Assembly: GCF_004522105.1 (NCBI RefSeq)
Contig: NZ_SPUJ01000001.1
Location: forward strand, 868,001 to 932,000
Reading direction: 5' to 3'
Origin: Nocardioides sp. 1609
GTDB lineage: Bacteria; Actinomycetota; Actinomycetes; Propionibacteriales; Nocardioidaceae
Length of the DNA: 64,000 nt
Positions 14,612-35,402 of the stretch are shown here, piece by piece. The notes beneath the pieces were generated by a model, which searched no databases, was not told the DNA's origin, and was given only the letters and a program-made list of their open reading frames with translations. The number at the start of each line of letters is the position of its first letter. Position 1 is the stretch's first letter. Made by a program: the position numbers and the translations under genes.

Positions 14612-15516
14612 CAGCTAGCCTCCGAACTGTTGCGCACGGGCGTGAGCTCGCTGGGCGGGAGTGGACCACGGCGAGCGCCGGATGTGGGGCACGCGACAGC
14701 GTCCTGGGCGGAAACCAGGACCGTCAGTGTTCCCACACGCCCAACCTCGACTGAGATCTCGTCTCCATCGTGAATCTGGCCGACGCCAGCGGGGGTACCG
14801 GTCGCAATGACGTCTCCCGGTTCCAGCACCATGACGGAGGACACGTAAGAGATGAGCTTGGGCACGTCCCAGATGAGATCCGCGATGTCCGCATCCTGTC
14901 GTCGGTCCCCGTTAACTCGAGTGATCAGTCGGAGTTGGTCCAGGGGGCCGACTTCGTCGGGTGTGACAAGGAGTGGGCCCATGGGTGTGAACGTGTCGAA
15001 GGACTTCCGTGTGGATCGGTCCTCGCCTCCCCTCATAGTCATGTCCAGAAGACAGGTATATCCGACGACGTGCTCGAGGGCGTTCGCTTCGTCGACATGA
15101 CTGGCCCTGCGGCCAATCACCACCGCCAGTTCTCCTTCTTGATCGAACCTCCGGTCGTGGTACGGGAGTCGGACCACCCCACCGTCGGCGATCAGCGATG
15201 TAGGCGCCTTGAGAAACACTCCGAGACTGCCGATATGAACAACCTCGCTCATCTCCGTCTGGTGATCGGTGTAGTTGACCGGGGCTGCAACAATCTTGCC
15301 CGGATCGGGCACCGGCGGCAGAACAGTCACCTGAGATAGCGGAATCACGTCTGACTCCGGTTCAGTGCTTGCGAGCTCACCTGCCATCAAGAGTCGACGC
15401 ATCGGACTGTGATCACCAGGGACTCCGCGCGCGAGGACGCGGATCCCTCCGTCCTCGTCGAGGATGCCAGCTGCGGCAGTCCCGTCGCTGAGGCTGACAC
15501 TGAGATAGCGGGTCAT
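14611..15516 (-). CDS. FAH-family hydrolase/isomerase, probable fumaryl- or maleylpyruvate hydrolase
   Basis: A 301-residue fumarylacetoacetate-hydrolase fold. Signatures are KIVAAPVNYTDH, KAPTSLIADGGVVRLP, the metal-binding Glu pair in FDQEGELAVVIGR and the Asp/Glu segment LLDMTMRGGED, TPMGPLLVTPDEV and GDVIATGTPAGVG. It is adjacent to a gentisate 1,2-dioxygenase, so cleavage of the maleylpyruvate or fumarylpyruvate produced by ring opening is the natural assignment. The C-terminal ~30 residues after LVSAQDAV are low-complexity and longer than needed. No maleylpyruvate isomerase is seen in the window. It overlaps the hydroxylase gene by 4 bp upstream and the amidohydrolase by 1 bp downstream. 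Confidence 0.87.
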   Translation of the reverse strand: MTRYLSVSLSDGTAAAGILDEDGGIRVLARGVPGDHSPMRRLLMAGELASTEPESDVIPLSQVTVLPPVPDPGKIVAAPVNYTDHQTEMSEVVHIGSLGVFLKAPTSLIADGGVVRLPYHDRRFDQEGELAVVIGRRASHVDEANALEHVVGYTCLLDMTMRGGEDRSTRKSFDTFTPMGPLLVTPDEVGPLDQLRLITRVNGDRRQDADIADLIWDVPKLISYVSSVMVLEPGDVIATGTPAGVGQIHDGDEISVEVGRVGTLTVLVSAQDAVACPTSGARRGPLPPSELTPVRNSSEAS

Positions 15517-16700: not shown

Positions 16701-16704
16701 GGCT

Positions 16705-17760
16705 CTACTCCGCGGTCTCTCGATACAGGCCCAACGACTCTAGAACGGGCGCGTCGGACACGGAGAACAGATCAAGCTCGGCGTCAGCGCGGATTTGCCA
16801 CGTGTGCCAGGAGGGGATCACGACAATGTCCCCGCTCTCCACTGGGAACGACGTATTGCCGACGTGGATGACACCGTTGCCGTGGAGGACGGCGCAAACC
16901 TGTGACCCTGTCTGTCGACGCGGGGCGGACTGGTTTCCCGCAAGGACTCGTTGCATCTGGCAGCGCATCGTGGGCATGACATCGCCGCCGCTGAAGGGGT
17001 TGGTGAACCTGAGTGTCGTTTCGCTGGCGCTCGAATCGGAATCGAGAAGACGGCTCAAGGCACGGTCGGTGTCGGCCCAGCGGTAGGCCAGCAGCGGAGA
17101 GTGCGGTGCGGCAGCGTTCTTGCCGAGGTGCCGGACCGGCGATAGTCCAGGTCCGCCACCCCAGTGCTGCTCGGAGCTCGAGAGGGGGTCCGTGCGGGTG
17201 TCCACCTGCTCGGTGGGCCCCTCTTCGAAAAAGACTGCATCGAGTGCAGCGACCATTGGGAGGTCCAGCACATCCATCCACATCATTGGTTGGGCGCCAG
17301 GGTTGTGGTGCTCGTGAAAGGTCATGCTGGGTGTCAGCACCAAGTCACCCGTGGCCATGTGCAGTGGGTCACCGTCAACGAGCGTCCAAGCCCCCTCCCC
17401 TTCCAGTACGAATCTGAGAGCCGCCGGCGTGTGCCGGTGCGGCGGTGCGCCTTCGGACGGATTGAGGAACTGGACTGCGGCCCACATTGTCGAGGTAGCG
17501 AAGGGCGCGCCCTGAAGCCCCGGGTTGGCGCAAGCGAGTACACGACGGTCACCACCCCTGTCGATGGGGATCAGTTCTCCTGACCGGGCGGCCAGCTTCT
17601 TCAGGGTGCGGCCGCTCCAGCGAAACGGTTGAGTACTGACGGCCGGTTCGTGCGTGAGGAGGCCAGTCAGCTCCCATAGGGGCTGGAGGTGTTCGTCCGC
17701 TAGATCGTTGTAGAGGGTCTGGACGTCGTCCTCTTCGCTGGTAAACCGTTCGGTGCCCAC
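16705..17760 (-). CDS. Gentisate 1,2-dioxygenase (bicupin)
   Basis: A 351-residue bicupin. The N-terminal cupin has the Fe(II) ligands in APPHRHTPAALRFVLEG (His108, His110) and a third histidine in SMTFHEHHNPG (~149-151). The C-terminal cupin (TGSQVCAVLHGNGVIHVGN to PSWHTWQIRADAELDLF) retains the fold. The length is normal for the family. It opens gentisate between C1 and C2 to maleylpyruvate. It is first in an operon with the FAD hydroxylase, FAH hydrolase and amidohydrolase. The start GTG 17760 is preceded by AGGAGGAG on the coding strand, and the promoter carries operator site d. Confidence 0.92.
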   Translation of the reverse strand: MGTERFTSEEDDVQTLYNDLADEHLQPLWELTGLLTHEPAVSTQPFRWSGRTLKKLAARSGELIPIDRGGDRRVLACANPGLQGAPFATSTMWAAVQFLNPSEGAPPHRHTPAALRFVLEGEGAWTLVDGDPLHMATGDLVLTPSMTFHEHHNPGAQPMMWMDVLDLPMVAALDAVFFEEGPTEQVDTRTDPLSSSEQHWGGGPGLSPVRHLGKNAAAPHSPLLAYRWADTDRALSRLLDSDSSASETTLRFTNPFSGGDVMPTMRCQMQRVLAGNQSAPRRQTGSQVCAVLHGNGVIHVGNTSFPVESGDIVVIPSWHTWQIRADAELDLFSVSDAPVLESLGLYRETAE

Positions 17761-17982: not shown

Positions 17983-19104
17983 TCAGACGCTGTCGAACAC
18001 CAGCACCGGCTTCACGGTCCTACCGGCCGCGGCGTCCGCAGCGGCAATGTTGATGTCTTCGAACGCGTAGTGCTGTTGCATGGTCTGCACTGGCAAGCTT
18101 CCGTCCAGAACGCGGTCGACGAGGTACGGGAGGAATGTCTGGGGCTCGGAGTCCCCCGCCGCGATCCCGCGGATGCTCCGTCCCATGACTAGAGGCATCA
18201 CATCGAACGCGGCGTGCTGGCCGGCTGGGGGAACGCCAACGATTCCGCACTGGCCGCGAATAGCCAACGAAGCGACGAGTCCCTCAATGACCTGAACGTG
18301 CCCTGTGGTGTCGATGGCGACGTCGACACCGACGCCGTGAGTGAGTTCAGAAAGAACCTGGACCAGGTCTTCGCCTGAAGTGTCTACGGTGATGTCTGCT
18401 CCCATAGTCTTCGCAAGCGCTAGGCGTTCCGGAACGCGGTCCACCACAATCACCCGACTCGGGCGCAGCAACTTCGTCGCCATGACGGCGGCCAGCCCCA
18501 CTCCACCTGCGCCGGCAATGACTACAACGTCGGTCGGGACAGGGCGCAGGACGTTCAGAACGGCACCTGCGCCTGCTTGCACTCCACATGCCAGAGACGC
18601 GAGGGCCGGGAGAGATGCGTCTGGTACGTGAGAACCCAGGATTACGAGGCTGTCCTCGTGGACCAGAGCGTGCTCAGCGAAGGATGACTGGCCGAAGAAG
18701 TGCCCGCCGAGCTCCACAGCTCCTGCTCGGATGGTAACCGACCCGTCGGCTCGGCGCCCGCCGGTTAGGTTCAGCGGTACCTTCACTTCGCAGTAGGCCG
18801 GGTGTCCTCCTCGGCACCATCGGCAAGTGCCGCATTGAGCGAAACTCAGAAGTACACGGTCGCCAGGGGCAGTCTTGGTGACGCGGCTACCGATGCTCTC
18901 TACGACACCGACGCCTTCGTGACCTAACACGCCGGGAAGTGGGAAGGGGAAGTGACCGTGCGCGGCTCCCATGTCGGACTGGCAGAGACCGGCTGCGACC
19001 ATTCGGACGACGACCTCGTCTGGCCTGGTCTCGTCCAACTCGACCTGTTGAATCTCGAATGGCGCTCCGGCCTCGGGTACCACAGCTGCGCGAGTCACTG
19101 TCAT
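17983..19104 (-). CDS. Zinc-dependent alcohol dehydrogenase (aryl-alcohol type)
   Basis: A 373-residue medium-chain dehydrogenase. Catalytic zinc ligands are visible in AGLCQSD, LGHEGVG and the Cys in SLACGVQAG. The structural zinc site is CGTCRWCRGGHPAYC. The Rossmann motif is AGAGGVGLAAVMA. It resembles benzyl/aryl-alcohol dehydrogenases that oxidise alcohols to aldehydes with NAD. It is the last gene of the long operon that begins with an aldehyde dehydrogenase at 30090, so alcohol-to-acid oxidation is encoded in one transcript. A second zinc dehydrogenase lies directly upstream. Confidence 0.9.
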   Translation of the reverse strand: MTVTRAAVVPEAGAPFEIQQVELDETRPDEVVVRMVAAGLCQSDMGAAHGHFPFPLPGVLGHEGVGVVESIGSRVTKTAPGDRVLLSFAQCGTCRWCRGGHPAYCEVKVPLNLTGGRRADGSVTIRAGAVELGGHFFGQSSFAEHALVHEDSLVILGSHVPDASLPALASLACGVQAGAGAVLNVLRPVPTDVVVIAGAGGVGLAAVMATKLLRPSRVIVVDRVPERLALAKTMGADITVDTSGEDLVQVLSELTHGVGVDVAIDTTGHVQVIEGLVASLAIRGQCGIVGVPPAGQHAAFDVMPLVMGRSIRGIAAGDSEPQTFLPYLVDRVLDGSLPVQTMQQHYAFEDINIAAADAAAGRTVKPVLVFDSV

Positions 19105-19158
19105 TTTCCTTCACTGTCGGGAAGCGTCGGGGTGTAGCCGCCTGATTGGAGCTGATGT

Positions 19159-20241
19159 TTACGGGAAGGTGACCATTCCTCGGATTGTGTGGCCGGCCTC
19201 GAGGTCGGTGAACGCCGACGGGAGGGCGTCGAGCCCGTATCGGGTCGTAATGAGGCCTTCTGCGTCGAGCCGTCCGGCTTCGATGAGGTCCACGAACCGC
19301 TGGAAGTCCGAGCGAACTTGCGTCGACCCGTAGTACGACCCGATTAGGTGCTTTTCTGCGCGAAAGAAGTCAGAAGCCGGAAGGTCGAGGCGAGCGGTGG
19401 GTGCAGGGATTCCCACTGTTGTGACGACCCCGCCGCGTCGAGCGCACTCGTATGCCACCGTCACCGTCGCCGGGGATCCGACGACCTCGAAGGCGAAGTC
19501 GACGCCTCGCCCTCCGGTCAGTTCTCGTACCTGTTCGGCCGTATCCGCCAGCGTCGGGTCAACTGTGTCGGTGGCGCCCAGCCCAAGACTCACGGTCCGC
19601 TTCAACGCGATTGGGTCTACCGCGATGATGCGTGCCGCACCACGGAGCCGAGCCCCCTGGATCACGCTCTGTCCGACTCCCCCGCACCCGATAACGGCAA
19701 CGGATGATCCAGCACTGACTTTGGCGGTGAACATTGCTGCTCCGGCGCCGGTTGCGATGCCGCAACCGATGAGGGCGAGTTGTTCGGAGGGGAGTTCGGA
19801 CTCGATCTTCACGGCTAACCGCCGGTCGATCGTCATGTACTCAGCGAAGGCACCGAGCCCGAGCATTGTTGTCACCGGTCGGCCGTCGGCGAGTTCGGCT
19901 CGGACAGTGCCTCGCACCGCATCTGTCTCGGCGCAAAGGTGCGTTTGACCGTTGACGCACCAATAGCAGTTGCCACAGACGGGAACCAGGCTGGCGACAA
20001 TTCGGTCACCTTTGACGATTCCTTGGACGTTGCTACCGATATCTTCGACCACGCCGGCTGCTTCGTGTCCGAGAACAGCAGGCGGCGCGATTCTCAAGAA
20101 CCCGCGTGTGGCGGAGATGTCGCTGTGGCATACCCCGGTTGCCTCGAGGCGCACGACGACATCGTCGGGTCCGGGATCGCGGGGCTGAATGTTCTCGATG
20201 GTGAATGATTGGTTCGTGTCGTGCATTACCGCGGCGCGCAT
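19159..20241 (-). CDS. Zinc-dependent alcohol dehydrogenase (second copy, distinct)
   Basis: A 360-residue medium-chain dehydrogenase. Catalytic zinc ligands are in TGVCHSD, LGHEAAG and IGCGIATG; the structural zinc cysteines are in CGNCYWCVNGQTHLC; the Rossmann fold is IGCGGVGQSVIQGA with AVDP after beta-2. Only moderately like its neighbour at 17983, it is not a recent duplicate. It resembles the class III-like/NDMA-dependent alcohol dehydrogenase branch in its ISATRGFLRIAPPAVLGHE region. It lies between the ABC permease and the other dehydrogenase in one operon. It probably oxidises an alcohol or hemithioacetal intermediate of the imported substrate. Confidence 0.9.
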   Translation of the reverse strand: MRAAVMHDTNQSFTIENIQPRDPGPDDVVVRLEATGVCHSDISATRGFLRIAPPAVLGHEAAGVVEDIGSNVQGIVKGDRIVASLVPVCGNCYWCVNGQTHLCAETDAVRGTVRAELADGRPVTTMLGLGAFAEYMTIDRRLAVKIESELPSEQLALIGCGIATGAGAAMFTAKVSAGSSVAVIGCGGVGQSVIQGARLRGAARIIAVDPIALKRTVSLGLGATDTVDPTLADTAEQVRELTGGRGVDFAFEVVGSPATVTVAYECARRGGVVTTVGIPAPTARLDLPASDFFRAEKHLIGSYYGSTQVRSDFQRFVDLIEAGRLDAEGLITTRYGLDALPSAFTDLEAGHTIRGMVTFP

Positions 20242-20314
20242 GGCTGCTCCATTGATCGGGATATGTGAGGGGGCTGTTTTGCTGGCTGGCGCGTCGCTAC
20301 CGGCAGGTGAGCCG

Positions 20315-21388
20315 TCACTCGTCCTTAACTTCGTGTCGGCGGACCCCTCGGGCAGCTCGGGCTTGGCGCGCCCGTCGTTGGGTTCGTGCCATGCCCACCG
20401 CGAGGAGCAACGCCATGCCGTTGAAGAGATCGGGGATCCACACCGGGGCGCCGCCGAGCTGGAGGCCCTTCACTCCAACCGCCAGCACGAAGACGGCTAC
20501 GAGGGTGCCTGCCACGTTGTATCGGCCACTTCGGAACTGGGTAGATCCCAGGAAGGCTGCCGCGTACGCGGGTAGGAGGTAGGCGGGGCCGATGGTTGGG
20601 TCACCTGTTGCCAGTCGCGAGCTCGCGAGCGCCCCTGCGAATCCGGCTATAGCCCCGCAAGCTGCGAGTGCTCCAACCAGGATCAGAGAAGTGCGAACTC
20701 CTGCGAGGCGTGCTGCGTTCAGGTTGCCACCCGTGGCATAGATCCGCCGTCCGACCGGGGTGCGCTCGAGGACGTACCAAACGATCAGGCCGACGACCAG
20801 CGCAAGCCATACCGGGTGGGTAAAGCCGAAGAGTTGCCCTGTAGCAAAGTCCTGGAACCCTTCGCCCAGGTTGAGGATCTGCTGCGAGTCCGAGAGCCAG
20901 GCGATGGCAGCAAGGACAACAGAACTCATGCCGAGGCTGGCGATGAAGGAGTCGATGTTTGCGACTGTGATGAGGATTCCGGTGAATGCGCCGACTGCGG
21001 CGCCAGCGACCAGTGTGAGAACGACTGCCTGAGCCGGACCCAAGCCTTGCTCTGTCAGGAGCCAGGCCACGACAATCGCGCCCAGGCCAACCTCGGCTCC
21101 GACGGCGAGGTCGAAAGCTCCAGCGGCCAGAGGAAGGACGAGCCCCACCGCGACGATGGCTACGAGGGCGCTGTTGTCGAGCATCGATCGCCAGACCGAT
21201 GCTGTCAGGAACGTGTCTGGAACCCACAGCGAGTAGATTGCGACGAGCGCGATCAGGATGTAGATGGCACTGATGTTGCGGAAAGACAGGGTCCGCAGAA
21301 GCACGCGCGCACGGCTCACCGAAGGTGGGTCAGTAGGCGTGGCGAGGCGGGCGCCATCGAGTCGATCGTTTGCGGCGTCAATGGACAT
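20315..21388 (-). CDS. Sugar-type ABC importer permease (second system)
   Basis: A 357-residue RbsC-family permease with about nine to ten hydrophobic segments. It has LPLAAGAFDLAVGAEVGLGA where the family has its DLSVG signature, and the cytoplasmic coupling loop YATGGNLNAARLAGVRT. The start overlaps the end of the ATPase gene by 11 bp, so they are cotranscribed and coupled. It partners the ATPase at 21378-22934 and the lipoprotein at 22942-24075. It is embedded in the HyuAB/dehydrogenase operon, which argues that the imported compound is the substrate of those enzymes rather than a plain sugar. Confidence 0.9.
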   Translation of the reverse strand: MSIDAANDRLDGARLATPTDPPSVSRARVLLRTLSFRNISAIYILIALVAIYSLWVPDTFLTASVWRSMLDNSALVAIVAVGLVLPLAAGAFDLAVGAEVGLGAIVVAWLLTEQGLGPAQAVVLTLVAGAAVGAFTGILITVANIDSFIASLGMSSVVLAAIAWLSDSQQILNLGEGFQDFATGQLFGFTHPVWLALVVGLIVWYVLERTPVGRRIYATGGNLNAARLAGVRTSLILVGALAACGAIAGFAGALASSRLATGDPTIGPAYLLPAYAAAFLGSTQFRSGRYNVAGTLVAVFVLAVGVKGLQLGGAPVWIPDLFNGMALLLAVGMARTQRRARQARAARGVRRHEVKDE

Positions 21389-22934
21389 AGGGGGCCTCTT
21401 CTGCGTCTTCGGCGGGCTGGGTCGTGGGGTGAGAGATCTCGGCTTCGAGGCTTTCAGTGACGAGTCGCGCTTCGCTCAACTCGTTGCGCTGCACCTCAGC
21501 CGCAATTCGTCCGCCGCGTAGGACCACGACCCGGTCGCAGAGCTCGGCCAACTCAGCTGAGTCAGAGGAGGAAACAACTACGGCGCTCCCGGCAGCCGCC
21601 GCATCGATGACGAGTTGATAGATGGCTGCTTTGGCGCCTACGTCTACGCCTTGGGTCGGTTCGTCGAGTAGCAGGACAACGGGCTGGTTGCGCAGCCATT
21701 TGGCGAGTACGACTTTCTGCTGGTTCCCGCCACTGAACAGCTCGAGGGTCCGTTCGGGATCGGGCGGATCGAGTTCGACCCGGTTCGCCCACAGAGTTGC
21801 CTCGCGCCTCTCCGCGTTGGCCCGGAGATTTCCCAGCCTGCCTCGCAGTTGACGTAAGGACGGCAGGGTCAGATTTTCTCGGGCCGGCATGGTCATGATC
21901 GCCCCGTCGGCGTGCCGATCCGAAGGGACGAACCCAACACCACGGCTGACGGCGCGTCGCGGCGAGGCCGGAAGGTTCTTGCCCTGGACAAGCACGCTGC
22001 CAGCGGATCTCGGCGTCGATCCAAATAGAAGACCGCAGAGGTGCTCTCGGCCAGACCCAAGGATTCCTGCGACGCCGACGATCTCGCCGGCGTGGACAGT
22101 CAGGCTGACTCCGTCTACCTCGCCCCCGCGAATTGCGCGTGCTTCCAACGTAGGAGCGCCCAGGTTCCGGTTCCCTGTGTCGAGAGACGCCAGGCTCTTG
22201 CCCGCGATCAGCTCGATGAGCTTGCCTCGATTCAGTTCTGAGGTGGGCACGTCGGCGACTACGCGGCCACCGCGCAGTGCGACGACGCGGTGCGCGAGGT
22301 CGAGGACCTCGTCTAGGCGGTGGCTGATGAAGATGACACCGGCGCCTTGTTCGGCTACGCGTGTAATTGCTTCGAACAGCCTGGCCGCCTCATCACCGTG
22401 GAGGGCGGCCGTGGGTTCATCGAGTAGCAGAACCTGATCGGGTCGAGGCCAGTTGCTGAGAGCCCTCGCGATGGCGACGATGGAACGCTCGCCGGGCGTG
22501 AGTTTCTCGATGGGCGCGTTGACGTCGAAGTCACCGGAGAAGCGTCTGATGAGTGACTTGGCAGCTTGTCGTTCGCGCCTGGGGGAAGTGGGGAGCCAGC
22601 CGCGGCTCCCCACCGCCCGTGCCAAGTTGAGGTTTTCGACCGTGTTCAGCATCGGGATGAGGCCGAGATCCTGGTGGATCACATGAATCTCAGCACGTGT
22701 AGCTGCTCCGTGGAGCCAATCGCCGCTTGCTGAGCGCACCTCGATCCGGCTTCCCGGATCAGGGTCGTGAATGCCTGTGAGCGCCTTCACGAGCGTGGAC
22801 TTCCCTGAACCGTTCTGGCCTACCACCGCCACGATCTCCCCCGAATGCAGGTCGAGGTCGACATCGATGAGGGCGCGTTGGCCCGGGAACGACTTCCCCA
22901 GACCACGGGTTCGGAGCAACTGATTCGAGTTCAT
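21378..22934 (-). CDS. Sugar-type ABC importer, tandem ATPase (second system)
   Basis: About 518 residues from the ATG at 22934; the frame extends further upstream but overlaps the binding-protein gene. Domain 1 has Walker A GQNGSGKST, signature LTPGERSIVAIARAL and Walker B VLLLDEPTAAL. Domain 2 has the weak Walker A region GILGSGREHLCG, signature FSGGNQQKVVLAKWL and VVLLLDEPTQGVD. It is a fused dimer of RbsA type. It energises the permease encoded immediately downstream. Only 7 bp separate it from the binding-protein stop. Confidence 0.92.
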   Translation of the reverse strand: MNSNQLLRTRGLGKSFPGQRALIDVDLDLHSGEIVAVVGQNGSGKSTLVKALTGIHDPDPGSRIEVRSASGDWLHGAATRAEIHVIHQDLGLIPMLNTVENLNLARAVGSRGWLPTSPRRERQAAKSLIRRFSGDFDVNAPIEKLTPGERSIVAIARALSNWPRPDQVLLLDEPTAALHGDEAARLFEAITRVAEQGAGVIFISHRLDEVLDLAHRVVALRGGRVVADVPTSELNRGKLIELIAGKSLASLDTGNRNLGAPTLEARAIRGGEVDGVSLTVHAGEIVGVAGILGSGREHLCGLLFGSTPRSAGSVLVQGKNLPASPRRAVSRGVGFVPSDRHADGAIMTMPARENLTLPSLRQLRGRLGNLRANAERREATLWANRVELDPPDPERTLELFSGGNQQKVVLAKWLRNQPVVLLLDEPTQGVDVGAKAAIYQLVIDAAAAGSAVVVSSSDSAELAELCDRVVVLRGGRIAAEVQRNELSEARLVTESLEAEISHPTTQPAEDAEEAPYVH

Positions 22935-22941
22935 GGGCAGG

Positions 22942-24075
22942 TCAGCCCACGTTCCACAATGTGGAGAAGCGCTCTGCGTAGTCTGGGTAGCCGGTCCATC
23001 CCAGGGACAGGTCGCCACTGAGCGAGTCAGCGTCCAGCCACTGGATCGGGACGAACTGCTCTTGTTCGACCGCAGTCAGCGGGTCGCCGATTGCCAGACG
23101 TGCTGCTTCGTCGACCATCGTCCAGGCCAGTACCGGGTAGTCGAGTCCGAGGCCCGCAGCCTGGTCTCCGTTCTCGATGTCCTGAAGGTTGGACGGTGTG
23201 GGACCGAACCCGATGTATGGGATGTCGATGCTGCCGGCCCGGAGTGCTGCCGGAAGGCCGGTTGTCGGCTCATTCGCACCGAAGACCGCGATGTCGGTGT
23301 CTGGGTTTGCCTGCAGGTCGCTGACGACAAGTGACGGTGCGGTGGAGCCGTAGCTGGTGATGGGAAGGTCGACGACGCGCAGGTCGCACGCCGGGCACAC
23401 CTCGGCCAACTGCTTCTCGAACGCGTCGCCTTCGGGGCCGAAGAAGTCGAGTTCGGGTGTGGTGTAGAAGACGACCTTGGAGTCCTGGTCATGGTTTGCC
23501 GCTACCCAGTCGGCCTGCAGACGGCCGACGGCCTCAGCGAGTGGCTGACCGAAGGAGGCCGCATCGATGCCGTACTTCTCGATTCCCATGATGCCGGTGC
23601 TGACGACGGGGATGTTGGCGGCCTCTGCCTCTTCGAGCTGTGAGGCAATGGCGTCGGGCTCGATAGCAGGCACGATGATCACGTCCGGGGACTGCTCGAG
23701 GATGGACGAGAAGGCACTCTGGACGTCCGCGGTTGACGCGCCCGCCTTAACGATTGTGAGGTTGACGCCGAGAGCATCGACGCCGTCCTGAAGCAGTTCT
23801 GAGAGCTGGGCACACACGGCTGCTGCACACTGCAGGTAAGCCAAGTTCGTGTCGGCGGGGATGGGCGCGGAGAGGGGTACGTCGGCCGGGAAGTCGCTCG
23901 GCGCGTCCGTGTAGGTCTTCGTCCGCTCCTTCGCGTCGTCGATCACCTGTTTGGTCGCTGCCTCGCGGCCCGAATTGTCGGACGTGTCATCCGAGCCACA
24001 TGCGGCCAACGCCAGCAATGCGGCGGTCGTAACGAGTGCCAGGCTGGCTCGACGACGCCTTGCGTGGAACACCAT
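22942..24075 (-). CDS. Substrate-binding lipoprotein of second sugar-type ABC importer
   Basis: 377 residues. A signal peptide with arginine-rich start (ARRRRASLALVTTAALLALAACGSD) and lipobox LAAC anchors the protein at Cys ~26. The remainder has the two-lobed peripla_BP_4 pattern (LTIVKAGAST, SPDVIIVPAIEPDAI, VVSTGIMG). An extra segment with three cysteines (LQCAAAVCAQ, VCPACDLR) is unusual for this family and may form disulphides. ATG 24075 follows GAAGGAGAC. It is first of the transporter genes, about 130 bp after the small zinc-ribbon gene. Confidence 0.9.
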   Translation of the reverse strand: MVFHARRRRASLALVTTAALLALAACGSDDTSDNSGREAATKQVIDDAKERTKTYTDAPSDFPADVPLSAPIPADTNLAYLQCAAAVCAQLSELLQDGVDALGVNLTIVKAGASTADVQSAFSSILEQSPDVIIVPAIEPDAIASQLEEAEAANIPVVSTGIMGIEKYGIDAASFGQPLAEAVGRLQADWVAANHDQDSKVVFYTTPELDFFGPEGDAFEKQLAEVCPACDLRVVDLPITSYGSTAPSLVVSDLQANPDTDIAVFGANEPTTGLPAALRAGSIDIPYIGFGPTPSNLQDIENGDQAAGLGLDYPVLAWTMVDEAARLAIGDPLTAVEQEQFVPIQWLDADSLSGDLSLGWTGYPDYAERFSTLWNVG

Positions 24076-24202
24076 TGGTTGTCTCCTTCGCGATGTTTGT
24101 TCTCAGGGTGGGCGCGCCGGTCACCCGGATGACCGTCATGAGGGCATGGCCCTCTAGCCGCCGACCTGTCGGCCGGACGGACGTAGTGAGGCGGTGGGGC
24201 CG

Positions 24203-24493
24203 CTAGCTGATGCGCCTGCTTCGGAGCCCTATGTCCTTCTCAGGCAGGACCTCGGTCTGCAGAACGGTGTAGCACCCCGGGCAGAACGCCTGCCTATGCA
24301 CGATTGCCTCGTCGACGTAAGTCGCGGAATGTGTTGGCAGACGTGTCCCGACGGTGGGCCACGGGGACTGCCGGACGCGCGCATTCGCGAGCCACTTGTC
24401 AGCACTTCCGACTGTCGCTCCGCAGTGTCGGCAGCGAACAGCGCCATCAACTAGGTCGAGGTTGTCGTCGAGTCTGCGGGTCGTCGCGCTCAT
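24203..24493 (-). CDS. Small zinc-ribbon subunit of the HyuAB-type carboxylase
   Basis: 96 residues with CRHCG at ~21-25 and CPGCY at ~71-75: two CxxC knuckles consistent with a structural zinc ribbon. The ATG overlaps the HyuB stop by 4 bp (ATGA), so it is translated with it. Acetone carboxylase has a small gamma subunit and acetophenone carboxylase a small zinc-containing subunit in the equivalent position. That context is the main argument for a third subunit, since I cannot align it to either. A plain hydantoinase would not need such a partner. Confidence 0.7.
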   Translation of the reverse strand: MSATTRRLDDNLDLVDGAVRCRHCGATVGSADKWLANARVRQSPWPTVGTRLPTHSATYVDEAIVHRQAFCPGCYTVLQTEVLPEKDIGLRSRRIS

Positions 24494-26475
24494 GGACGCA
24501 CCTCACTCTCGGAGACACGTACTTGTCGAAGTTCCTCTCGCCGCGTGACCGTGGCAGCAGCATCAATGAGGAAGCCGGTGTCGTCGTCGCTCACAACAAC
24601 GCCATAGATGTCGTGCGCAGCGACCTCACCGATCTTGGCGTCCGTGAGGTCTCGGGCAACCAAGCTCGGGTCACGACGCAAAGGATCGCCGTACCCGCCG
24701 CCACCCTGCCACTCGAAGTAGTACACGTCGTCCCAGTCGAGAACTGTCTCGAGTGCGGGAGGAACGATCTCTGCGGACCCCCCGATGTCCACCAACGCGA
24801 TCGGCATCCCGCTCTCGCGTAGCTGGTTACGAATGTCACTGTCGCGGACGATGACCTCATACGAGGCACTGCCCGGGTATCCGCCGCTCAGGCCGGCAGC
24901 CTGCGGCAGTGCCTTGCCTGAAGAGCAACTAACCAAGTGGATCGCCCGGGCGGCAGTGTCATGAGGGATGAGGCAGCTGGACCCCCCGAGCCCACCTCGG
25001 AATCGTCCGGGCCCACCGCTGTCTGGTTCTTCTCGTCGCCACAGGTACAGAACCGGATATGCAAACTCGTTCATCTCGACGTCGGCGATCCTGCCCCCGA
25101 GGTTTGGCGACTCACCAGCGGTGTCGACGCCGTCGCGGTCGGGGCGTGCCCCGAATCCGCCGGCCATGCAGTCGGACAGCATGGTGACGAATGGGTTGGA
25201 ACGCTGGTCGACCCCGGCGAGCAAGGAGAGGCCGAAGGTGCCCTTACAGACGCTCATGAACTCTGGTGTCGAGGTCTCTTCGGCGTCGAGCATGTTCGCC
25301 AGGCATTCGTGTACCGCGTTGCCAGTGGCCCAGGCGCTGGCAACTGACGCCTTGCTGATCCCGGAGGGGAAGGTGCAGTTGTTGATGGTTCCTGGCTCGG
25401 AGATGATTTCTACGCATCGCATAAGTCCGCCGGGGGCCCACGGGATCCGCCCGCAGATCAGGGTCAGGATCCCGGTAACTACACCACCGCGGAGTCCGGC
25501 GAATGTGCAGTTGATGAGACCCTCGACCTGTTCGTCTGTGCCAGTGAAGTCGAACGTGATGCGGTCGCCGTGTTTCGTCATCGACAAGGCGATCTTGTAC
25601 AGGCCACGGTCTCCCACTCGGGCCTGGTCTTGGTAGGCGACGGAGGACCACTCACCGTCGGGGAGCTCGGTGAGCCGCTGCCGCAGTCTTCCCTCGGCGT
25701 CGTCCATGATGCGCCGCATGACCGTTTTGACGACGTCAGCGCCGTAGCGCTCGACCAAGCGAGTCAACTGCTGCTGGGCCACATTGTTGGCACCGATCTT
25801 CGCGCGAAGGTCAAGGCCCACGAGCGCCGGCATTCGCGATCGCCGCAGATACGAGTCCTCCACGTCTGCCAGAACAACTCCACCAGACACGATCTTGAGT
25901 GGGGGAATAGGAAGGGACTCCCAGAACACGTCCTTCGAGTGGACGGACCAGCTTCCCGGTGAGACGCCACCGAGATCGATCTGGTGAGCTACGGCGCAAG
26001 TCCAAGCGAAGAGCTCATCGCCGACGAACAGCGGAGCAAACAGCGAAACATCGTTCTGGTGGACGCCGCCACCGACCCAAGGGTCGTTGCAGAGGAACAT
26101 GTCGCCGGCCTGGATTCCAGGGTTGTCCGACCTGTTCTGCAAGGTCCAGCGCACCGCCATGTCCATGGTGGCGCACAGTTGGGCGTTGTACATGCCTACC
26201 TGGACGGCGTCGCCTACCTCATCGGTGATACAGACCCCGAAGTCCACGGCATCGGTGACCACAACCGATCCGGACATGCGCTTGATTGCTGCGCCCATCT
26301 CCTCGGTGATGGCTGCGAGCCGGTGCCTGACGATCTCGTAGGTCAGGGCATCTACTGACAATGCGTCGTCGGGGTGGTGCAGCCGCAGCCGGGGGTCGAG
26401 CCGCTCGGGGTCAACGCCTCGGTCTTCCGATCCACTGGCGAATTTCTCGGAGCCCTGCACATGGAACACAGCCAT
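24490..26475 (-). CDS. Hydantoinase B / acetone-acetophenone carboxylase alpha-type subunit (HyuB family)
   Basis: A 661-residue hydantoinase_B/oxoprolinase protein. Landmarks are LTYEIVRHRLAAITEEMGAAIKR, DAVDFGVCITDEVGDAV, MFLCNDPWVGGGVHQNDV, AVAHQIDLGG and the C-terminal WQGGGGYGDPLRRDP. The DPWVGG..HQND and AHQIDLGG segments are metal-site regions in carboxylase structures. It works with HyuA (26477-28624), which supplies ATP-dependent activation. Family members carboxylate acetone or acetophenone, or hydrolyse hydantoins/oxoproline. The aldehyde/alcohol dehydrogenases alongside, and the small zinc protein, favour a ketone carboxylase. Confidence 0.9.
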   Translation of the reverse strand: MAVFHVQGSEKFASGSEDRGVDPERLDPRLRLHHPDDALSVDALTYEIVRHRLAAITEEMGAAIKRMSGSVVVTDAVDFGVCITDEVGDAVQVGMYNAQLCATMDMAVRWTLQNRSDNPGIQAGDMFLCNDPWVGGGVHQNDVSLFAPLFVGDELFAWTCAVAHQIDLGGVSPGSWSVHSKDVFWESLPIPPLKIVSGGVVLADVEDSYLRRSRMPALVGLDLRAKIGANNVAQQQLTRLVERYGADVVKTVMRRIMDDAEGRLRQRLTELPDGEWSSVAYQDQARVGDRGLYKIALSMTKHGDRITFDFTGTDEQVEGLINCTFAGLRGGVVTGILTLICGRIPWAPGGLMRCVEIISEPGTINNCTFPSGISKASVASAWATGNAVHECLANMLDAEETSTPEFMSVCKGTFGLSLLAGVDQRSNPFVTMLSDCMAGGFGARPDRDGVDTAGESPNLGGRIADVEMNEFAYPVLYLWRREEPDSGGPGRFRGGLGGSSCLIPHDTAARAIHLVSCSSGKALPQAAGLSGGYPGSASYEVIVRDSDIRNQLRESGMPIALVDIGGSAEIVPPALETVLDWDDVYYFEWQGGGGYGDPLRRDPSLVARDLTDAKIGEVAAHDIYGVVVSDDDTGFLIDAAATVTRREELRQVRVSESEVRP

Positions 26476-26476
26476 T

Positions 26477-28624
26477 TCACTGGCCTCCTGTCGTGTTGCC
26501 GCTCAGCACGGACGCATTCGATTGCCCGACAGTCTCGAAGGTCAGCCGGAGGTTGCCGTACCGGTCGACCGTCCCCAGCACGCCTTCGGGGATCGAAACG
26601 GTGGTGGTCGACGCCTCGATGACGGCAGGGCCGTTGATCTGGTCCTCGGCGTAGAGGTCGGCGTAGTGGTAGATCGCTGCTTCCTGCCAACCGAGCCTGG
26701 CGATCTGCCAGACCCGTCGGTGGCTGCGCGGCCGCAGTTCCTCACTCGCACGGGTCGGGGCCTCGGGGAGCTGAGGACGCAGAGGGAGTTCTCCGGTGAC
26801 GAACGCCCGGTAGCTGATGGCTTGCAACCCCGCGTCGCGGTACCCGGCTTCAGCACCGAACAGGCGTGCGTACTGGGCCTCGAACTCCCCGGCGATGTCG
26901 GCGACGGTTCGCTCATCGATCACACCTGCCCCGACCGGCGTGGCGAGCTCTGCCAGTTGCATCGAGTAGCGGACGTCTACTTCACGCCTGGTGGTGACTG
27001 AGGCGAACTCGATGTTCTGCCGGCTCAGGTTGTCAGCAAGGGTGGTCTCGAGTGCCGCGAACTCGGCAGCCACCTGGTCAACATCGAGAGGGAAGGTGCT
27101 CGGTCGCGACGACTCAGCCGCTAGGACGACGTCAGTCGCCGCCAGCCCGTAAGCCGAGAATGCGGAGGCAGTCGTGCCCAGGGGCACGACAACTTCACGG
27201 ACCCCGAGGTCAGCGGCATAGCTCGCGCAGTGAACCGGCCCGGATCCGCCGTAGGCGTAGACCACGAAGTCGCGTGGGTCGTGCCCGGCGCCGACCACTA
27301 CGCGCCTCACAAGGTCAGCTGTCTGTGAGTTGGCGATCGCGTAAACCGCCGCCGCCGCTTCTTCAGCGTTCAGGCCGAGTGGGCCTCCGACATCGCGAAG
27401 GAGGGCTTCGCGTGCCAGGTCCAGGTGGAGCTGCTTGCGGCCGCCGAGGAACTGGTTCGCGTCGAGAAGCCCGAGAACCAGGTTCGCATCTGTGATCGTG
27501 GGGCGGGTGCCTCCCTCACCGAAGCATGCTGGGCCGGGACTGGCGCCGGCGCTATCGGGTCCCACACGCAGGTTCCCGTGGTCCAGCCATGCGATGGCGC
27601 CGCCGCCGCTGCCGATCGCGGTGACGTCGACCATGGGTGTGTTCACCCGATACTGGCCGAGCAGCATGGTCGGGCTCACCACTGGTGCCCCATCAACCAC
27701 GAGGCCGGTCAGGAAGGTTGTGCCACCCATGTCGGTTGAGATGACGTTCGGGTGATCTAGAAGTGCACCCAACCGGACGCAGCCTGCGATGCCTCCGGTG
27801 AGGACGGAGCCGACGGTAGTAATCGCCTGGTTCGGTGCCTCGGCTGCAGTAACTGCGCCACCGGACCCTTGCATCAGGAGCAGGGAGCCGCTGAACCCCA
27901 GGCTTGTGAGACGGTCGGTCAACGGATCTAGGTAGGCCCGAAGCCGCGGCGCTACCTGGGTGCTCATGATCGTCGTCACGCTGCGGGAGTACTCGCGGAT
28001 TCTTGGGCTGAGCTGCGAGGACAAACCGACGTGCATGTCCGGCGCCAATTCACCGATGATGCGTTCCACCGTCTGCTCATGCTGGGGGTTGATGAACGAC
28101 CAGAGGAGACTTACGGCGATTGCCTCGACTCCGGCATCGATGAGCTCCTGGACGACCTTCCTCGTGTGGTCCTCGTCCAAGGCAATGATGACCGAGCCTG
28201 AGTGGTCTACCCGCTCGTGAAGCTCACGAACGAGACTGTGGTGCACAAGTGGCTGGGGTTTGTCGGTTTGGGAGAGATTCTGCTTTTCCTCAGCGGACAA
28301 CCCGGTGTGTCGTCCTTCGGCGTTCTGGATGCGGATGGAGTCAGCGTGCCCCTGAGTGCACAGATATCCGATGCGTGCGACGTTGCCGGTGACTAGGGCA
28401 TTGAGGGTTGATGTGGTGCCGTGACAGATGTAGGCGGTCTCGCTGAGAAGCTCGCTGATGGGGCGGCCGATCGTGTTGGCCAGTTCGGTCAGCGAATCGA
28501 TCATTCCCGTTGCGAAGTCGCCGGGCGTGGAGGGTGCCTTGGCCGAGAAGGCTCGCCCTTCGTCGTCGCACCCGAACGCGTCAGTGAACGTGCCGCCGAT
28601 GTCGACTCCCAGGACGTAGGTCAT
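26477..28624 (-). CDS. Hydantoinase A / ketone carboxylase ATPase-type subunit (HyuA family)
   Basis: 715 residues from ATG 28624; upstream in-frame codons to 28774 lie inside the aldehyde dehydrogenase and are rejected. ASKHA-fold landmarks are VLGVDIGGTFTDAF (phosphate 1), ISTDMGGTTFLTGLV (phosphate 2) and YAYGGSGPVHCASYAADLG (adenosine loop). In acetone and acetophenone carboxylases this subunit phosphorylates substrate and/or bicarbonate with ATP. The start overlaps the aldehyde dehydrogenase stop (ATGA), and the stop is 2 bp before HyuB. The order is aldehyde dehydrogenase, HyuA, HyuB, zinc ribbon, ABC importer, two alcohol dehydrogenases. Confidence 0.92.
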   Translation of the reverse strand: MTYVLGVDIGGTFTDAFGCDDEGRAFSAKAPSTPGDFATGMIDSLTELANTIGRPISELLSETAYICHGTTSTLNALVTGNVARIGYLCTQGHADSIRIQNAEGRHTGLSAEEKQNLSQTDKPQPLVHHSLVRELHERVDHSGSVIIALDEDHTRKVVQELIDAGVEAIAVSLLWSFINPQHEQTVERIIGELAPDMHVGLSSQLSPRIREYSRSVTTIMSTQVAPRLRAYLDPLTDRLTSLGFSGSLLLMQGSGGAVTAAEAPNQAITTVGSVLTGGIAGCVRLGALLDHPNVISTDMGGTTFLTGLVVDGAPVVSPTMLLGQYRVNTPMVDVTAIGSGGGAIAWLDHGNLRVGPDSAGASPGPACFGEGGTRPTITDANLVLGLLDANQFLGGRKQLHLDLAREALLRDVGGPLGLNAEEAAAAVYAIANSQTADLVRRVVVGAGHDPRDFVVYAYGGSGPVHCASYAADLGVREVVVPLGTTASAFSAYGLAATDVVLAAESSRPSTFPLDVDQVAAEFAALETTLADNLSRQNIEFASVTTRREVDVRYSMQLAELATPVGAGVIDERTVADIAGEFEAQYARLFGAEAGYRDAGLQAISYRAFVTGELPLRPQLPEAPTRASEELRPRSHRRVWQIARLGWQEAAIYHYADLYAEDQINGPAVIEASTTTVSIPEGVLGTVDRYGNLRLTFETVGQSNASVLSGNTTGGQ

Positions 28625-30090
28625 CGCGGACCTTCGGTCTCGAAGTTGACGTGGACGTTCTTGATCTGGGTGAACGACTCCACTTCGGACATGTCCTCCT
28701 CGCGACCCAGGCCGCTGTCCTTCCATCCGCCGAAGGGGGTGGCCGGAACGTGACGGGAAACGTCGTTGACCCATACGTAGCCAGCTTCGATGTCGCGCGC
28801 GAAGCGGTGCGCGAGTCCGAGGTCACTGGTGAAGACGCTGGCGGTCAGCCCGTACTGCACGCTGTTGGCGATGCCCATGGCGTGGTCGTAGTCGTTGAAG
28901 GGCATGACGGCGAGAACTGGTCCGAAGATCTCTTCCTGAGCGAGGCGTGAGTTCGGGTCGACGTCTGCGAATACCGTCGGCCTGACGAACAGTCCCCGGT
29001 TGAAATCCCCGTCGGTGAGCCGGCTTCCGCCAGCGATTAGGCGTGCGCCCTCGTTGTGCGCGATGCCGATGAATTCGGTGACCTTGTCCATCTGAGACTG
29101 GTTCACGATCGCGCCGGTCTCGGTGTCGTCATCGGACGGGGACCCGGACCGGATGGCATCGACCTTCGATGCGACGGCGTCCACGAAGTCGGTGTAAATG
29201 TCCCTGTGGACGATCAGCCGTGAAGTTGACCCGCACGACTGTCCCTGCCAGGTGAAGTTCATGCCGCGCACCGCCGCAGCGATCGCTGCGTCGATGTCGC
29301 TGTCAGGAAAGACTACGAGCGGGTTCTTGCCTCCGAGCTCCAGGGTCACAGTCTTCAGGTTCACCTGCGCAGCTCGCGCGACGATGCGCCGTCCAGTTTC
29401 GGCCGAACCGGTGAACGAAATCCGTCGAATATCAGGGTGTGTGACCAAGGCGTCGCCCGCAGTGGCGCCGAGGCCGGTTACGCAGCTGACGACGCCGGGG
29501 GGCAGGACTTTCTGGGCCAGCTGTGCCACGCGAACCGCGGACAGACTGGTGTGCTCGCTCGGCTTGATGATGACGGTGTTCCCGGCGGCCAACGGGGCCC
29601 CGATTCGGGAAGCTGCGAAGAGTAAGGGGTGATTGAAGGGAATGATGCGGGCCACAACACCAAACGGCTGCCGGAGCGTGTAGTTCAAGCGGCTGCTGGA
29701 TGTCGGCACGGTGCGCCCGGCAACTTGCATGGTCAGAGACGCGTAGTAGCGCAGGCACTCCACCGCGAAGCGGACGTCGTTGCGCATCTCCCGGATCGGG
29801 CTGCCGTTGTCCTGGACGTCGAGCAGGGCGAGCTCGTCGCCGTTCTCGTGGATCAGGTCTGCGATCGCCAGCAGGGCATCGCGCCATACCTGTGGGTCCT
29901 GACGCTTCCACTCAGAAGCCGCTGTCAGGGCGGCCGTGACCGCGTCGTTCACATCGTCTGCCGTGGCAGACGGGACCCGGGCCAGGAGTTCGCCGGTGGC
30001 TGGGTTGATGGCGTCGAGCGTTTCGCCATCGCTGGCGCTGCGCTCGCGTCCCCCGATGACCATTGGGAACAGCTCTACCTGGGTGGGCAT
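28621..30090 (-). CDS. NAD(P)-dependent aldehyde dehydrogenase
   Basis: About 489 residues from ATG 30090, chosen because AAGGTGG precedes it; the frame opens at 30120. Catalytic Cys is in WQGQSCGSTS, catalytic Glu in TLELGGKNP, cofactor-binding residues in PFNHPLL and KPSEHTS, and FTGSAETGRRI supplies the Rossmann turn. It oxidises an aldehyde to the acid, probably the product of the two alcohol dehydrogenases at the other end of the operon. It is first gene after the promoter with operator site e. Confidence 0.92.
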   Translation of the reverse strand: MPTQVELFPMVIGGRERSASDGETLDAINPATGELLARVPSATADDVNDAVTAALTAASEWKRQDPQVWRDALLAIADLIHENGDELALLDVQDNGSPIREMRNDVRFAVECLRYYASLTMQVAGRTVPTSSSRLNYTLRQPFGVVARIIPFNHPLLFAASRIGAPLAAGNTVIIKPSEHTSLSAVRVAQLAQKVLPPGVVSCVTGLGATAGDALVTHPDIRRISFTGSAETGRRIVARAAQVNLKTVTLELGGKNPLVVFPDSDIDAAIAAAVRGMNFTWQGQSCGSTSRLIVHRDIYTDFVDAVASKVDAIRSGSPSDDDTETGAIVNQSQMDKVTEFIGIAHNEGARLIAGGSRLTDGDFNRGLFVRPTVFADVDPNSRLAQEEIFGPVLAVMPFNDYDHAMGIANSVQYGLTASVFTSDLGLAHRFARDIEAGYVWVNDVSRHVPATPFGGWKDSGLGREEDMSEVESFTQIKNVHVNFETEGPR

Positions 30091-30126
30091 CCATCCACCT
30101 TTCTCGTGCGCTTCGCGCACATCTCA

Positions 30127-30164
30127 CGTATACGGAGTATTCGGACTGCGATGTGCGCCACCAA
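30127..30164 (-). promoter_or_regulatory. Promoter and operator (site e) of the HyuAB operon
   Basis: On the minus strand TTGGTG (complement of 30159-30164), 17 bp and AATACT (complement of 30136-30141) are followed immediately by CGTATACG (30127-30134). The layout is the same as at site d. Confidence 0.6.
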
Positions 30165-30344
30165 GGGAGAGATGGTGGCGCGCATCACATCTGCTGCACT
30201 CCATCATGGCTCTTCTCGAACCAAAGTCAAGATGATCCGGAGCACGAAATTCGGGTCTGCTATGCCGCGGACGGGTTCTGTGGCCTATCGTCGCCCTGAT
30301 CGGCCGAAGCGGCGTCGGACGTCGTGGTACGTCATCGCTGGATA

Positions 30345-30362
30345 GGACCTATACGGACCTTC
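30345..30362 (+). promoter_or_regulatory. Variant operator (site f) upstream of TetR
   Basis: GGACCTATACGGACCTTC keeps the right half of the motif (TATACGGAC) with a changed left half. It lies about 45-60 nt before the TTG start at 30405. A weaker copy than a, d, e or g; it may link the TetR gene to the regulon. Confidence 0.4.
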
Positions 30363-30404
30363 ACCAATAGACCTCGACGGCTCTCGCCAGGATGGAGCAG
30401 CACG

Positions 30405-30950
30405 TTGCCTCGCAACCGCAGGCACATACCCCGGGATGAGCGCGCAGCCGAACTCCTCGATGCGGCCACCCAAGAGTTCGTTGCCCACGGTTACGCCAAC
30501 ACGACGATCGCGAGCATCAGCGCTGCAGCCCACGTCGCTCGGGCCAACGTCTACTGGTACTACGAGTCGAAGGATGATGTCTTCGCCGCCGTGATGGACG
30601 GTCTCCTGGACCGTGAGATCGAGCAACTCAACGTGCAGCACGCGTCCCTGGATGCCGCCAGCCGGCTCAAGCGCGGCTTGGTCGAGCTCTATCCATACAG
30701 ACACCTGCACCGTGAGATGCACGAGAGGCTCCCGTACTCAGCGACCGTCGAGGCGGCACATACCAAATTCATGGGGTGGCTGACCGGGTTGGTGAGGGAA
30801 GCGCTGACAGAGTCCGGTACCGAACTCGACACCAACATGGCGACGGACATGGTCATCGCCATCTTCGAGGGCGCCCGGTCCCCGACCGAAACTAGACCCG
30901 CCTATGAACTGATTCCGTTCGCTATGGAACTACTTGCCCGCAAGACCTAA
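30405..30950 (+). CDS. TetR-family transcriptional regulator
   Basis: About 181 residues from TTG 30405, which is preceded by GGAG (30394-30397). The N-terminal helix-turn-helix is AAELLDAATQEFVAHGYANTTIASISAAAHVARANVYWYYESKDDVF. The C-terminal ligand domain is short (about 120 residues). It is divergent from the HyuAB operon and convergent with the Fe-alcohol dehydrogenase operon. It is an obvious alternative candidate for a local repressor. Site f in front of it could be its own operator or that of the tandem MarR. Confidence 0.88.
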   Translation: MPRNRRHIPRDERAAELLDAATQEFVAHGYANTTIASISAAAHVARANVYWYYESKDDVFAAVMDGLLDREIEQLNVQHASLDAASRLKRGLVELYPYRHLHREMHERLPYSATVEAAHTKFMGWLTGLVREALTESGTELDTNMATDMVIAIFEGARSPTETRPAYELIPFAMELLARKT

Positions 30951-33514: not shown

Positions 33515-33604
33515 TGGTCCTGCTCCGATTCTGGTGTCCGGGATCGTGCCACCGGGGTTTGTCTGGCTGGGCCGAGATTGAGGGCTTTCGAGTGAGCGCC
33601 GCGG

Positions 33605-35314: not shown

Positions 35315-35402
35315 GCGAACGCGGACGGGCAACAGGTGACTGCCAATCCCCCCATAGGCAGGGCCATTCTGCTGCCGGCTGGATGCAGGCACCGTTCACG
35401 TC

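Follow-up and report, generated by a model that had tools for sequence, protein, structure and literature searches.

A gamma-bearing HyuAB operon of Nocardioides sp. 1609 as a candidate biotin-free aryl-ketone carboxylase system

The window analysed here is a stretch of 64,000 nucleotides from Nocardioides sp. 1609 (contig NZ_SPUJ01000001.1, positions 868,001 to 932,000), and its own numbering is used throughout. Nine genes on its minus strand, all in one direction between 17983 and 30120, encode in order an aldehyde dehydrogenase (ALDH), HyuA, HyuB, a protein of 96 amino acids (aa), the binding protein, ATPase and permease of an ABC importer, and two alcohol dehydrogenases, ADH2 and ADH1. We propose that HyuA, HyuB and the 96-aa protein constitute an aryl-ketone carboxylase that uses ATP and bicarbonate rather than biotin, belongs to a separate, uncharacterised clade and feeds gentisate. 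From the sequence evidence we give this overall explanation a probability of about 0.5, and its parts differ in strength. The three proteins very probably form a complex of the gamma-bearing type, and carboxylation would be its likely activity; an aromatic substrate draining to gentisate is suggested more tentatively. Comparison with relatives shows the subunit make-up, intact ATP motifs and metal site, and two substrate-pocket changes specific to the clade. The gene cluster around HyuAB-gamma is real, and a preliminary description made from the sequence had placed the nine genes and their ATGA overlaps correctly.

The small protein as a gamma subunit

A family profile, fusions to HyuB and a predicted structure identify the 96-aa protein as a gamma subunit of the carboxylase type. 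These settle its identity, not single-sequence searches: by itself the protein reached no family cut-off in Pfam and gave a weak phmmer match (E 0.38) to ApcB, the gamma subunit of acetophenone carboxylase. Its Cys4 domain is the one fused to the HyuB C-terminus in HyuB relatives. Those relatives came from a scan with a HyuB alignment, whose patterns lay in HyuB and not in gamma. The best 80 of 341 confirmed stretches yielded 78 loci, with HyuB up to 60-64% identical to that of the window (Amycolatopsis, Labrys, Modestobacter, Klenkia and others), and five loci from further relatives bring the clade to 83; some are not independent, coming from one genome or from near-identical strains (e.g. 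L040/L050/L053 and L068/L069). Gamma was scored as two CxxC motifs within the final 135 residues of HyuB, or else as a BLAST match to the window gamma elsewhere in the locus. By this criterion none of the 83 clade loci lacks it; 59 carry it as a HyuB fusion and 24 as a gene of its own.

A profile of 27 gamma sequences, searched against the PDB, ranked ApcB first (5l9w_C, E 1.9e-7), followed by the acetone carboxylase gamma chains 5m45_C (0.0012) and 5svb_C (0.0021). The four zinc-site cysteines are invariant across the 27 sequences. PF08882 (Acetone_carb_G) was matched at E<=1 by 19 of the 27 members, with a best E of 6.9e-12, and was not among the matches listed for the window's own protein. 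Two rows, L093, which is frame-shifted, and L058, were left out of the later of two alignments. An AlphaFold model of the protein (mean pLDDT 86.3) retrieved five gamma chains at Foldseek ranks 1-5, with probability 1.0 and E about 1e-3, while rank 6 had a probability of only 0.23. Together these results bear out the carboxylase-type small subunit that the preliminary description had suggested. It is therefore most likely that HyuA, HyuB and gamma assemble into a complex of ketone-carboxylase type. The gene order is consistent with this: PMC5214803, on the acetophenone carboxylase structure, describes hydantoinase complexes without gamma and an alpha-beta-gamma order for acetone carboxylase genes, and the window order HyuA-HyuB-gamma, with gaps of 1 and -4 bp, agrees with that published mark of a carboxylase.

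One relative stands apart. L024 (7264-9393, plus strand) encodes a HyuB whose C-terminal gamma-like domain retains just one of the four zinc cysteines, and its HyuA branches in the tree as sister lineage to the hydrolase side that lacks gamma; it is possibly an intermediate in gamma loss.

Clade, substrate pocket and characterised relatives

For HyuA the best PDB chains are those of acetophenone carboxylase (Apc; 5l9w_B, ranked first by phmmer), the caprolactamase subunit CapA, N-methylhydantoinase and acetone carboxylase (Acx). Its ATP motifs VDIGGTFTD, DMGGTT and GASPGP are intact forms of the family's DxGGTxTD, D.GGT and GxxPGP, which are common to carboxylases and hydrolases. The HyuB metal site D78/H139/D142/H164 aligns with D65/H123/D126/H148 of Apc; this Asp-His-Asp-His site is also common to both kinds of enzyme, and D78, H139 and D142 are conserved in all 92 rows examined, H164 in 91 of them.

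HyuA phylogeny sets the clade apart. Six loci with no usable HyuA partner (L038, L050, L051, L053, L090 and L092) were dropped, leaving 78 HyuA rows (the window and 77 loci); 48 of these were placed in a 66-row tree and 23 in a more careful 41-row tree, and the others were assigned by similarity. The clade has an SH-aLRT of 100 in the first tree and a support of 100/99 in the second. In the 41-row tree the gamma-less hydrolase side, caprolactamase and N-methylhydantoinase form a clade of their own (100/96) that excludes the window HyuA, and Apc pairs with Acx, both on long branches; the hydrolase part held no oxoprolinase of known activity. The preliminary description had named firm clustering of HyuAB with hydantoinases/oxoprolinases as one outcome that would undo its proposal; this does not occur, HyuA lying outside the hydantoinase/caprolactamase clade. 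We claim no ancestral state, since both trees are unrooted and contain long branches (Acx, Apc, CapA).

Clade members span Actinomycetota, Pseudomonadota and Myxococcota, and several are metagenome-assembled genomes (MAGs). Prevalence is low: among 396 genomes drawn evenly from the window's phylum, 2 matched at E<=1e-150, one of them the window's own. The MAG loci L040 and L047 each carry two HyuA genes (one on the opposite strand) and three HyuB-gamma genes with an adjoining alcohol dehydrogenase (ADH), and L050, L051 and L053 have clade HyuB-gamma genes with no recognisable HyuA inside the locus. Six plasmid rows on the hydrolase side lack gamma, and their HyuB proteins are 532-602 aa long.

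The clade coincides, within the rows examined, with a two-residue signature in HyuA. The family motif SGP is replaced by SVL in 78 of 78 clade rows and in none of 18 others, of which 17 have SGP or GGP and one SGL. Likewise, the position of CapA Asp302 is Leu in all 78 clade rows and in 0/18 others (D in 15, K in two, E in one); the two rows with Lys are L113 and L115. Passages of PMC8453981 call CapA Pro272 and Asp302 conserved around the substrate and the gamma-phosphate site, and both are Leu in the window and throughout the clade rows. A haloarchaeal plasmid locus (Natronosalvus, L029, 7963-12279) encodes HyuA, HyuB and a separate gamma yet has the ordinary SGP/Asp pocket; a FAD monooxygenase and acyl-CoA dehydrogenases surround it.

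In the literature covered, open-access articles in PMC and in part only passages of them, acetone and acetophenone carboxylases are the only characterised gamma-bearing enzymes of this family. Acetophenone carboxylase (ApcABCDE of Aromatoleum aromaticum, PDB 5l9w) has homologous alpha (ApcC), beta (ApcD) and gamma (ApcB) subunits, shares the ATP motifs, metal ligands and Cys4 zinc site, and is nearest in HyuB length (684 aa, against 661 in the window). It differs in its second kinase subunit, alpha', in falling outside the clade and in retaining Asp315 and a Pro in its SGP-like motif, where the window HyuA has Leu at both positions. It also has an epsilon subunit, which some predicted operons lack. 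A search of the 4.83 Mb genome gave HyuA as its sole PF01968 gene, and acetophenone carboxylase proper was rejected because alpha' was not found. Acetone carboxylase (AcxABC of Xanthobacter autotrophicus, PDB 5m45, 5svb) likewise has three subunits ordered alpha-beta-gamma, and its gamma fold took Foldseek rank 1. However, its beta (about 720-776 aa) and gamma (about 168 aa) subunits exceed those of the window by about 115 and 70 aa, its phmmer scores are below those of Apc and its pocket residues differ; acetone carboxylase proper was rejected on subunit lengths and sequence.

Caprolactamase CapAB and N-methylhydantoinase (PDB 6yra, 7hk5) share HyuA/HyuB homology, ATP motifs and the metal site. 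Descriptions give them as two-subunit or fused enzymes that have no gamma; they retain SGP and Asp302 and group with the gamma-less plasmid rows in their own clade. HpeCBA of Rhodococcus rhodochrous GD02 resembles our proposal in its chemistry, the carboxylation of aryl methyl ketones. It is biotin-dependent, and passages of PMC9618137 call the acetophenone-type carboxylase 'not homologous' to it, so the preliminary description was mistaken in listing hydroxyphenylethanone-type enzymes among users of HyuA and HyuB. As its three enzyme components the operon encodes a PF01968 protein, a PF02538 protein and one that is gamma-like, unlike the biotin carboxylase, carrier and carboxyltransferase subunits of HpeCBA, and an Hpe-type pathway was rejected as not homologous. 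An actinobacterial ARO microcompartment locus contains HyuAB, given as of unknown role in passages of PMC10470539, beside aromatic ring-cleavage genes; its likeness to the window is in HyuA/HyuB and aromatic neighbours. The word 'hydantoin' is absent from the main text, as available, of the RHA1 acetovanillone paper (PMC13101465).

Operon, importer and neighbouring genes

Neighbour counts in the clade loci are approximate, based on mechanical open-reading-frame calls and single-linkage clusters in flanks of about 10 kb or less; clusters were labelled from one or two representatives each and counted anywhere in the locus. ALDH (cluster c9) is found in 19 of 24 separate-gamma loci, 15 of these with the gene within 1.5 kb on the same strand, against 2 of 59 fused-gamma loci. 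Other neighbours of the separate-gamma type are a short-chain dehydrogenase/reductase (SDR; 17/24), Rieske-system reductase (10/24), Rieske oxygenase (7/24), aryl-AMP ligase (5/24) and class II aldolase (8/24, rising to 10/24 when cluster c79, an Aldolase_II gene in L033, is counted in). The fused-gamma loci carry a salicylyl-CoA-hydroxylase-like FAD enzyme (44/59), an aryl-AMP-ligase-like gene (34/59), a VOC protein (30/59) and an arylmalonate-decarboxylase-family protein (29/59).

Three loci illustrate close links to gentisate-type genes. The Nocardia locus L041 reads, in one direction, a gentisate 1,2-dioxygenase-like (GDO-like) gene, a fumarylacetoacetate (FAA) hydrolase, a mycothiol-type maleylpyruvate-isomerase-family gene, a 3-hydroxybenzoate 6-monooxygenase-like (3HB6MO-like) gene, ALDH, HyuA, HyuB, gamma and a class II aldolase. 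A Herbiconiux MAG of the fused branch (L103) has 3HB6MO-like, ALDH, class II aldolase and HyuA genes one after another, and GDO-like, isomerase-family and FAA-hydrolase-cluster genes in the vicinity. In Labrys (L033) a 3HB6MO gene above its cut-off (581.7 vs 459) is divergent from ALDH-HyuA-HyuB-gamma.

In the window itself (Table 1), the nine genes are very likely a single operon. From ALDH to ADH1 the gaps are -4, 1, -4, 127, 4, -11, 73 and 54 bp, with 4-bp ATGA overlaps at the ALDH/HyuA and HyuB/gamma junctions. The coordinates in the preliminary description hold, with two amendments. For the ATPase the most likely start is 22937 instead of the mechanically called 23018, and the same-strand run continues beyond 17983 because a GDO-like gene follows 222 bp after ADH1; this gene opens a second tight cluster of four genes (13670-17760, minus strand). 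ALDH may alternatively start at an ATG at 30090. The divergent TetR protein is a candidate regulator of the operon, and an inverted repeat in the divergent gap is a candidate operator. Promoter-like sites at 30230-30203 and 17820-17793 (minus strand) are weak, since the scan of the region found 3 against 2.1 expected; the promoter, terminator and inverted-repeat scans carry little weight, being near chance or predictions alone.

Table 1. Features of the operon and its surroundings in window coordinates
Feature	Coordinates	Strand	Evidence or score
ALDH (Aldedh), first operon gene	28621..30120	-	PF00171 E 1.1e-160
HyuA, alpha (ASKHA kinase) subunit, 715 aa	26477..28624	-	PF01968/PF05378/PF19278
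HyuA residues 273-275, S-V-L replacing family S-G-P	27800..27808	-	
HyuA Leu305, at CapA Asp302 / Apc Asp315 position	27710..27712	-	
HyuB, beta subunit, 661 aa	24490..26475	-	PF02538 E 2.4e-122
Gamma subunit, 96 aa, zinc-ribbon cysteines C21, C24, C71, C74	24203..24493	-	
Lipoprotein-like substrate-binding protein, CUT2 (ribose) kind, Peripla_BP_4	22942..24075	-	PF13407 E 1.2e-19
ABC ATPase with two nucleotide-binding domains, AraG/RbsA kind	21378..22937	-	PF00005, two stretches
ABC permease, RbsC kind, BPD_transp_2	20315..21388	-	PF02653 E 3.8e-35
Zinc alcohol dehydrogenase ADH2	19159..20241	-	PF08240/PF00107
Zinc alcohol dehydrogenase ADH1, last operon gene	17983..19104	-	PF08240/PF00107
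GDO-like cupin	16705..17760	-	TIGR02272 279.6 bits, cut-off 442
3HB6MO-like FAD hydroxylase	15513..16700	-	NF006021 381 bits, cut-off 459
FAA-hydrolase-family enzyme	14611..15516	-	PF01557
Amidohydrolase-2 family enzyme	13670..14611	-	PF04909
TetR-family gene, divergent, upstream of operon; start uncertain	30324..30950	+	PF00440 E 3.7e-14
Inverted repeat in divergent gap, 17-nt arms, 88%, 9-nt spacer	30147..30189	.	
Class II aldolase-family gene	33605..34339	-	PF00596

Beyond the gentisate-type cluster lie an SDR gene (11704-12546) and a MarR gene (12678-13604, plus strand). On the other side of the operon, a separate minus-strand cluster (30975-34339) comprises co-directional genes for an iron-containing ADH, a second, HpaE-like ALDH and a class II aldolase-family protein; after it comes a gene for an MmyB-like regulator (34466-35392). 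The aldolase-family gene is a possible pathway partner of HyuAB-gamma.

The importer has the CUT2 architecture, with a Peripla_BP_4 binding protein, an ATPase with two nucleotide-binding domains and a BPD_transp_2 permease. It reached no sugar equivalog cut-off in NCBIfam; the ATPase scores 359-373 bits against the AraG/YtfR/RbsA models, below their cut-offs of 689-850, and the binding protein is distantly like sugar- and ribose-binding proteins (best E 8.3e-7). Binding-protein matches at E<=1e-25 occur in 18 of 391 genomes of the order, the window's own included. The surroundings of nine importer relatives were viewed, from 8 of 22 other matches and one of five plasmid records. L142 (binding protein 46%, permease 64%) lies alongside an HpaB-type hydroxylase, an alpha/beta hydrolase and an ADH, and a Herbiconiux plasmid relative (L148) alongside MhpA-like, VOC, FAA-hydrolase, thiolase and acyl-CoA dehydrogenase genes. 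L146 and L147 (binding protein 28-29%) are near flavoproteins that read as Baeyer-Villiger-like from their motifs, L145 has a P450 and mixed genes, and L140 is a more distant importer about 8-11 kb from its own HyuAB-gamma. In L019 the importer (permease 59%) adjoins HyuAB-gamma itself.

Several binding-protein relatives thus sit in aromatic or ketone loci, and a glycoside is therefore not indicated; the glycosylated or polyhydroxylated ketone that the preliminary description drew from the sugar-type importer is weakly founded, and a glycosylated or polyol substrate was rejected as the default reading. A lignin-type acyl aromatic, its other suggestion, is possible. The layout is also not unique: RbsABC-type importer genes adjoin HyuAB in L019, L022, L025 (where no binding protein was seen) and, by annotation, Rhodococcus qingshengii. 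No description of the nine-gene layout or of the clade was found in the open-access PMC literature. The layout alone is no proof of carboxylation, because a R. qingshengii plasmid (L113) clusters an RbsABC-type importer with an amidohydrolase and with a HyuAB pair that has no gamma.

Competing explanations and a proposed route

Several observations weigh against an aryl-ketone carboxylase feeding gentisate. HyuA scores higher against the NCBIfam caprolactamase model than against that of acetophenone carboxylase (482 vs 361 bits), its clade stands apart from Apc and Acx, and the two altered pocket residues could mean a different chemistry. The GDO-like and 3HB6MO-like genes of the window, and those of L041 and L103, fall below the NCBIfam equivalog cut-offs, and the window's gentisate-type cluster may be on a separate transcript from the operon. 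Gentisate genes near HyuAB are scarce (within flanks of about 10 kb or less, GDO-like in 2 of 89 loci; the 3HB6MO-like cluster c26 in 5 of 89, one of them, L023, outside the clade). Among the genes annotated between 11704 and 36149 no enzyme cleaving a beta-keto acid was recognised, two of the nine importer relatives (L143 and L144) have no clear aromatic cluster, and the literature covered gave no activity or substrate for any clade member.

With the caprolactamase alpha model as the top NCBIfam match of HyuA, the complex might be an ATP-dependent hydrolase for the ring opening of a lactam, a hydantoin or some other cyclic amide; gamma would then be purely structural and the importer would bring in the heterocycle. 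The R. qingshengii cluster with its amidohydrolase would fit such an enzyme, as would the view, in passages of PMC5214803, that gamma is distant from the active site. Nonetheless, gamma accompanies every clade locus examined and is missing from the six hydrolase-side plasmid rows, the clade falls outside the hydrolase clade, and its common neighbours resemble aromatic hydroxylase, dioxygenase and ligase genes, so we consider a hydrolase unlikely. The importer leads to a different alternative. CUT2 importers carry mostly sugars and polyols, the binding protein is distantly ribose-binding-like, and two ADHs with an ALDH suit polyol oxidation; a polyol could thus be taken up, oxidised by the ADHs from secondary alcohol to ketone, and carboxylated as an aliphatic ketone or hydroxyketone (acetone, acetoin or a sugar-derived ketone). 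This is rather improbable given the aromatic-type neighbours frequent in the clade, the HpaB-like and MhpA-like genes beside the binding-protein relatives L142 and L148, and a HyuB and gamma far shorter than the 776 and 168 aa of acetone carboxylase.

Carboxylation could also take place on a phosphorylated phenol, directly giving salicylate, 3-hydroxybenzoate or gentisate with no methyl ketone involved. Both branches of the clade have loci adjoining hydroxybenzoate-processing-like genes (L041, L103 and L033, and the aryl-AMP ligase and salicylyl-CoA-hydroxylase-like genes of the fused branch), and the clade has replaced two pocket residues that most rows of carboxylases and hydrolases retain. 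Such ring carboxylation would leave the ALDH and SDR/ADH partners unexplained, and phenol carboxylation is not known to have a precedent in the family; of this reading we are very doubtful.

In the aryl-ketone route that we favour, the CUT2-type importer would take up a polar aromatic alcohol or ketone, and ADH1 and ADH2 would oxidise the alcohol to the ketone. HyuA would then use ATP to phosphorylate the enol(ate) and bicarbonate, one after the other because there is no alpha', and the metal of HyuB would join the two into a beta-keto acid. Removal of the side chain could proceed independently of CoA, with a reduction by a dehydrogenase and then a retro-aldol reaction in which a class II aldolase releases an aryl aldehyde for ALDH to oxidise; alternatively, ALDH might directly oxidise a second side-chain alcohol. 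The resulting hydroxybenzoate would be degraded by the products of the neighbouring 3HB6MO-like, GDO-like and FAA-hydrolase genes. The aldolase step is the least supported of the mechanism, the window's class II aldolase gene being in a separate cluster.

A wider generalisation is speculative. The clade with the SVL/Leu signature may be a third functional class of gamma-bearing, ATP-dependent carboxylase, with a single kinase subunit acting on hydroxyaryl ketones (or phenols). Its products would lose their side chain by the aerobic, CoA-independent sequence of dehydrogenase, class II aldolase and ALDH on the way to 3-hydroxybenzoate and gentisate, and the sister branch with fused gamma would do the same via aryl-CoA hydroxylation.

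The clade suggests that aerobic degradation of aromatics includes a biotin-free, CO2-fixing step not yet described. Its importance derives from a pocket change present in every row examined and from repeated links to gentisate-type and CoA-type aromatic catabolism. The two-residue marker separates the genes of the clade from other 'hydantoinase' annotations, and the content of the L041 gene run makes the proposed pathway testable. For Nocardioides sp. 1609, the operon may open an undescribed route of aromatic degradation.

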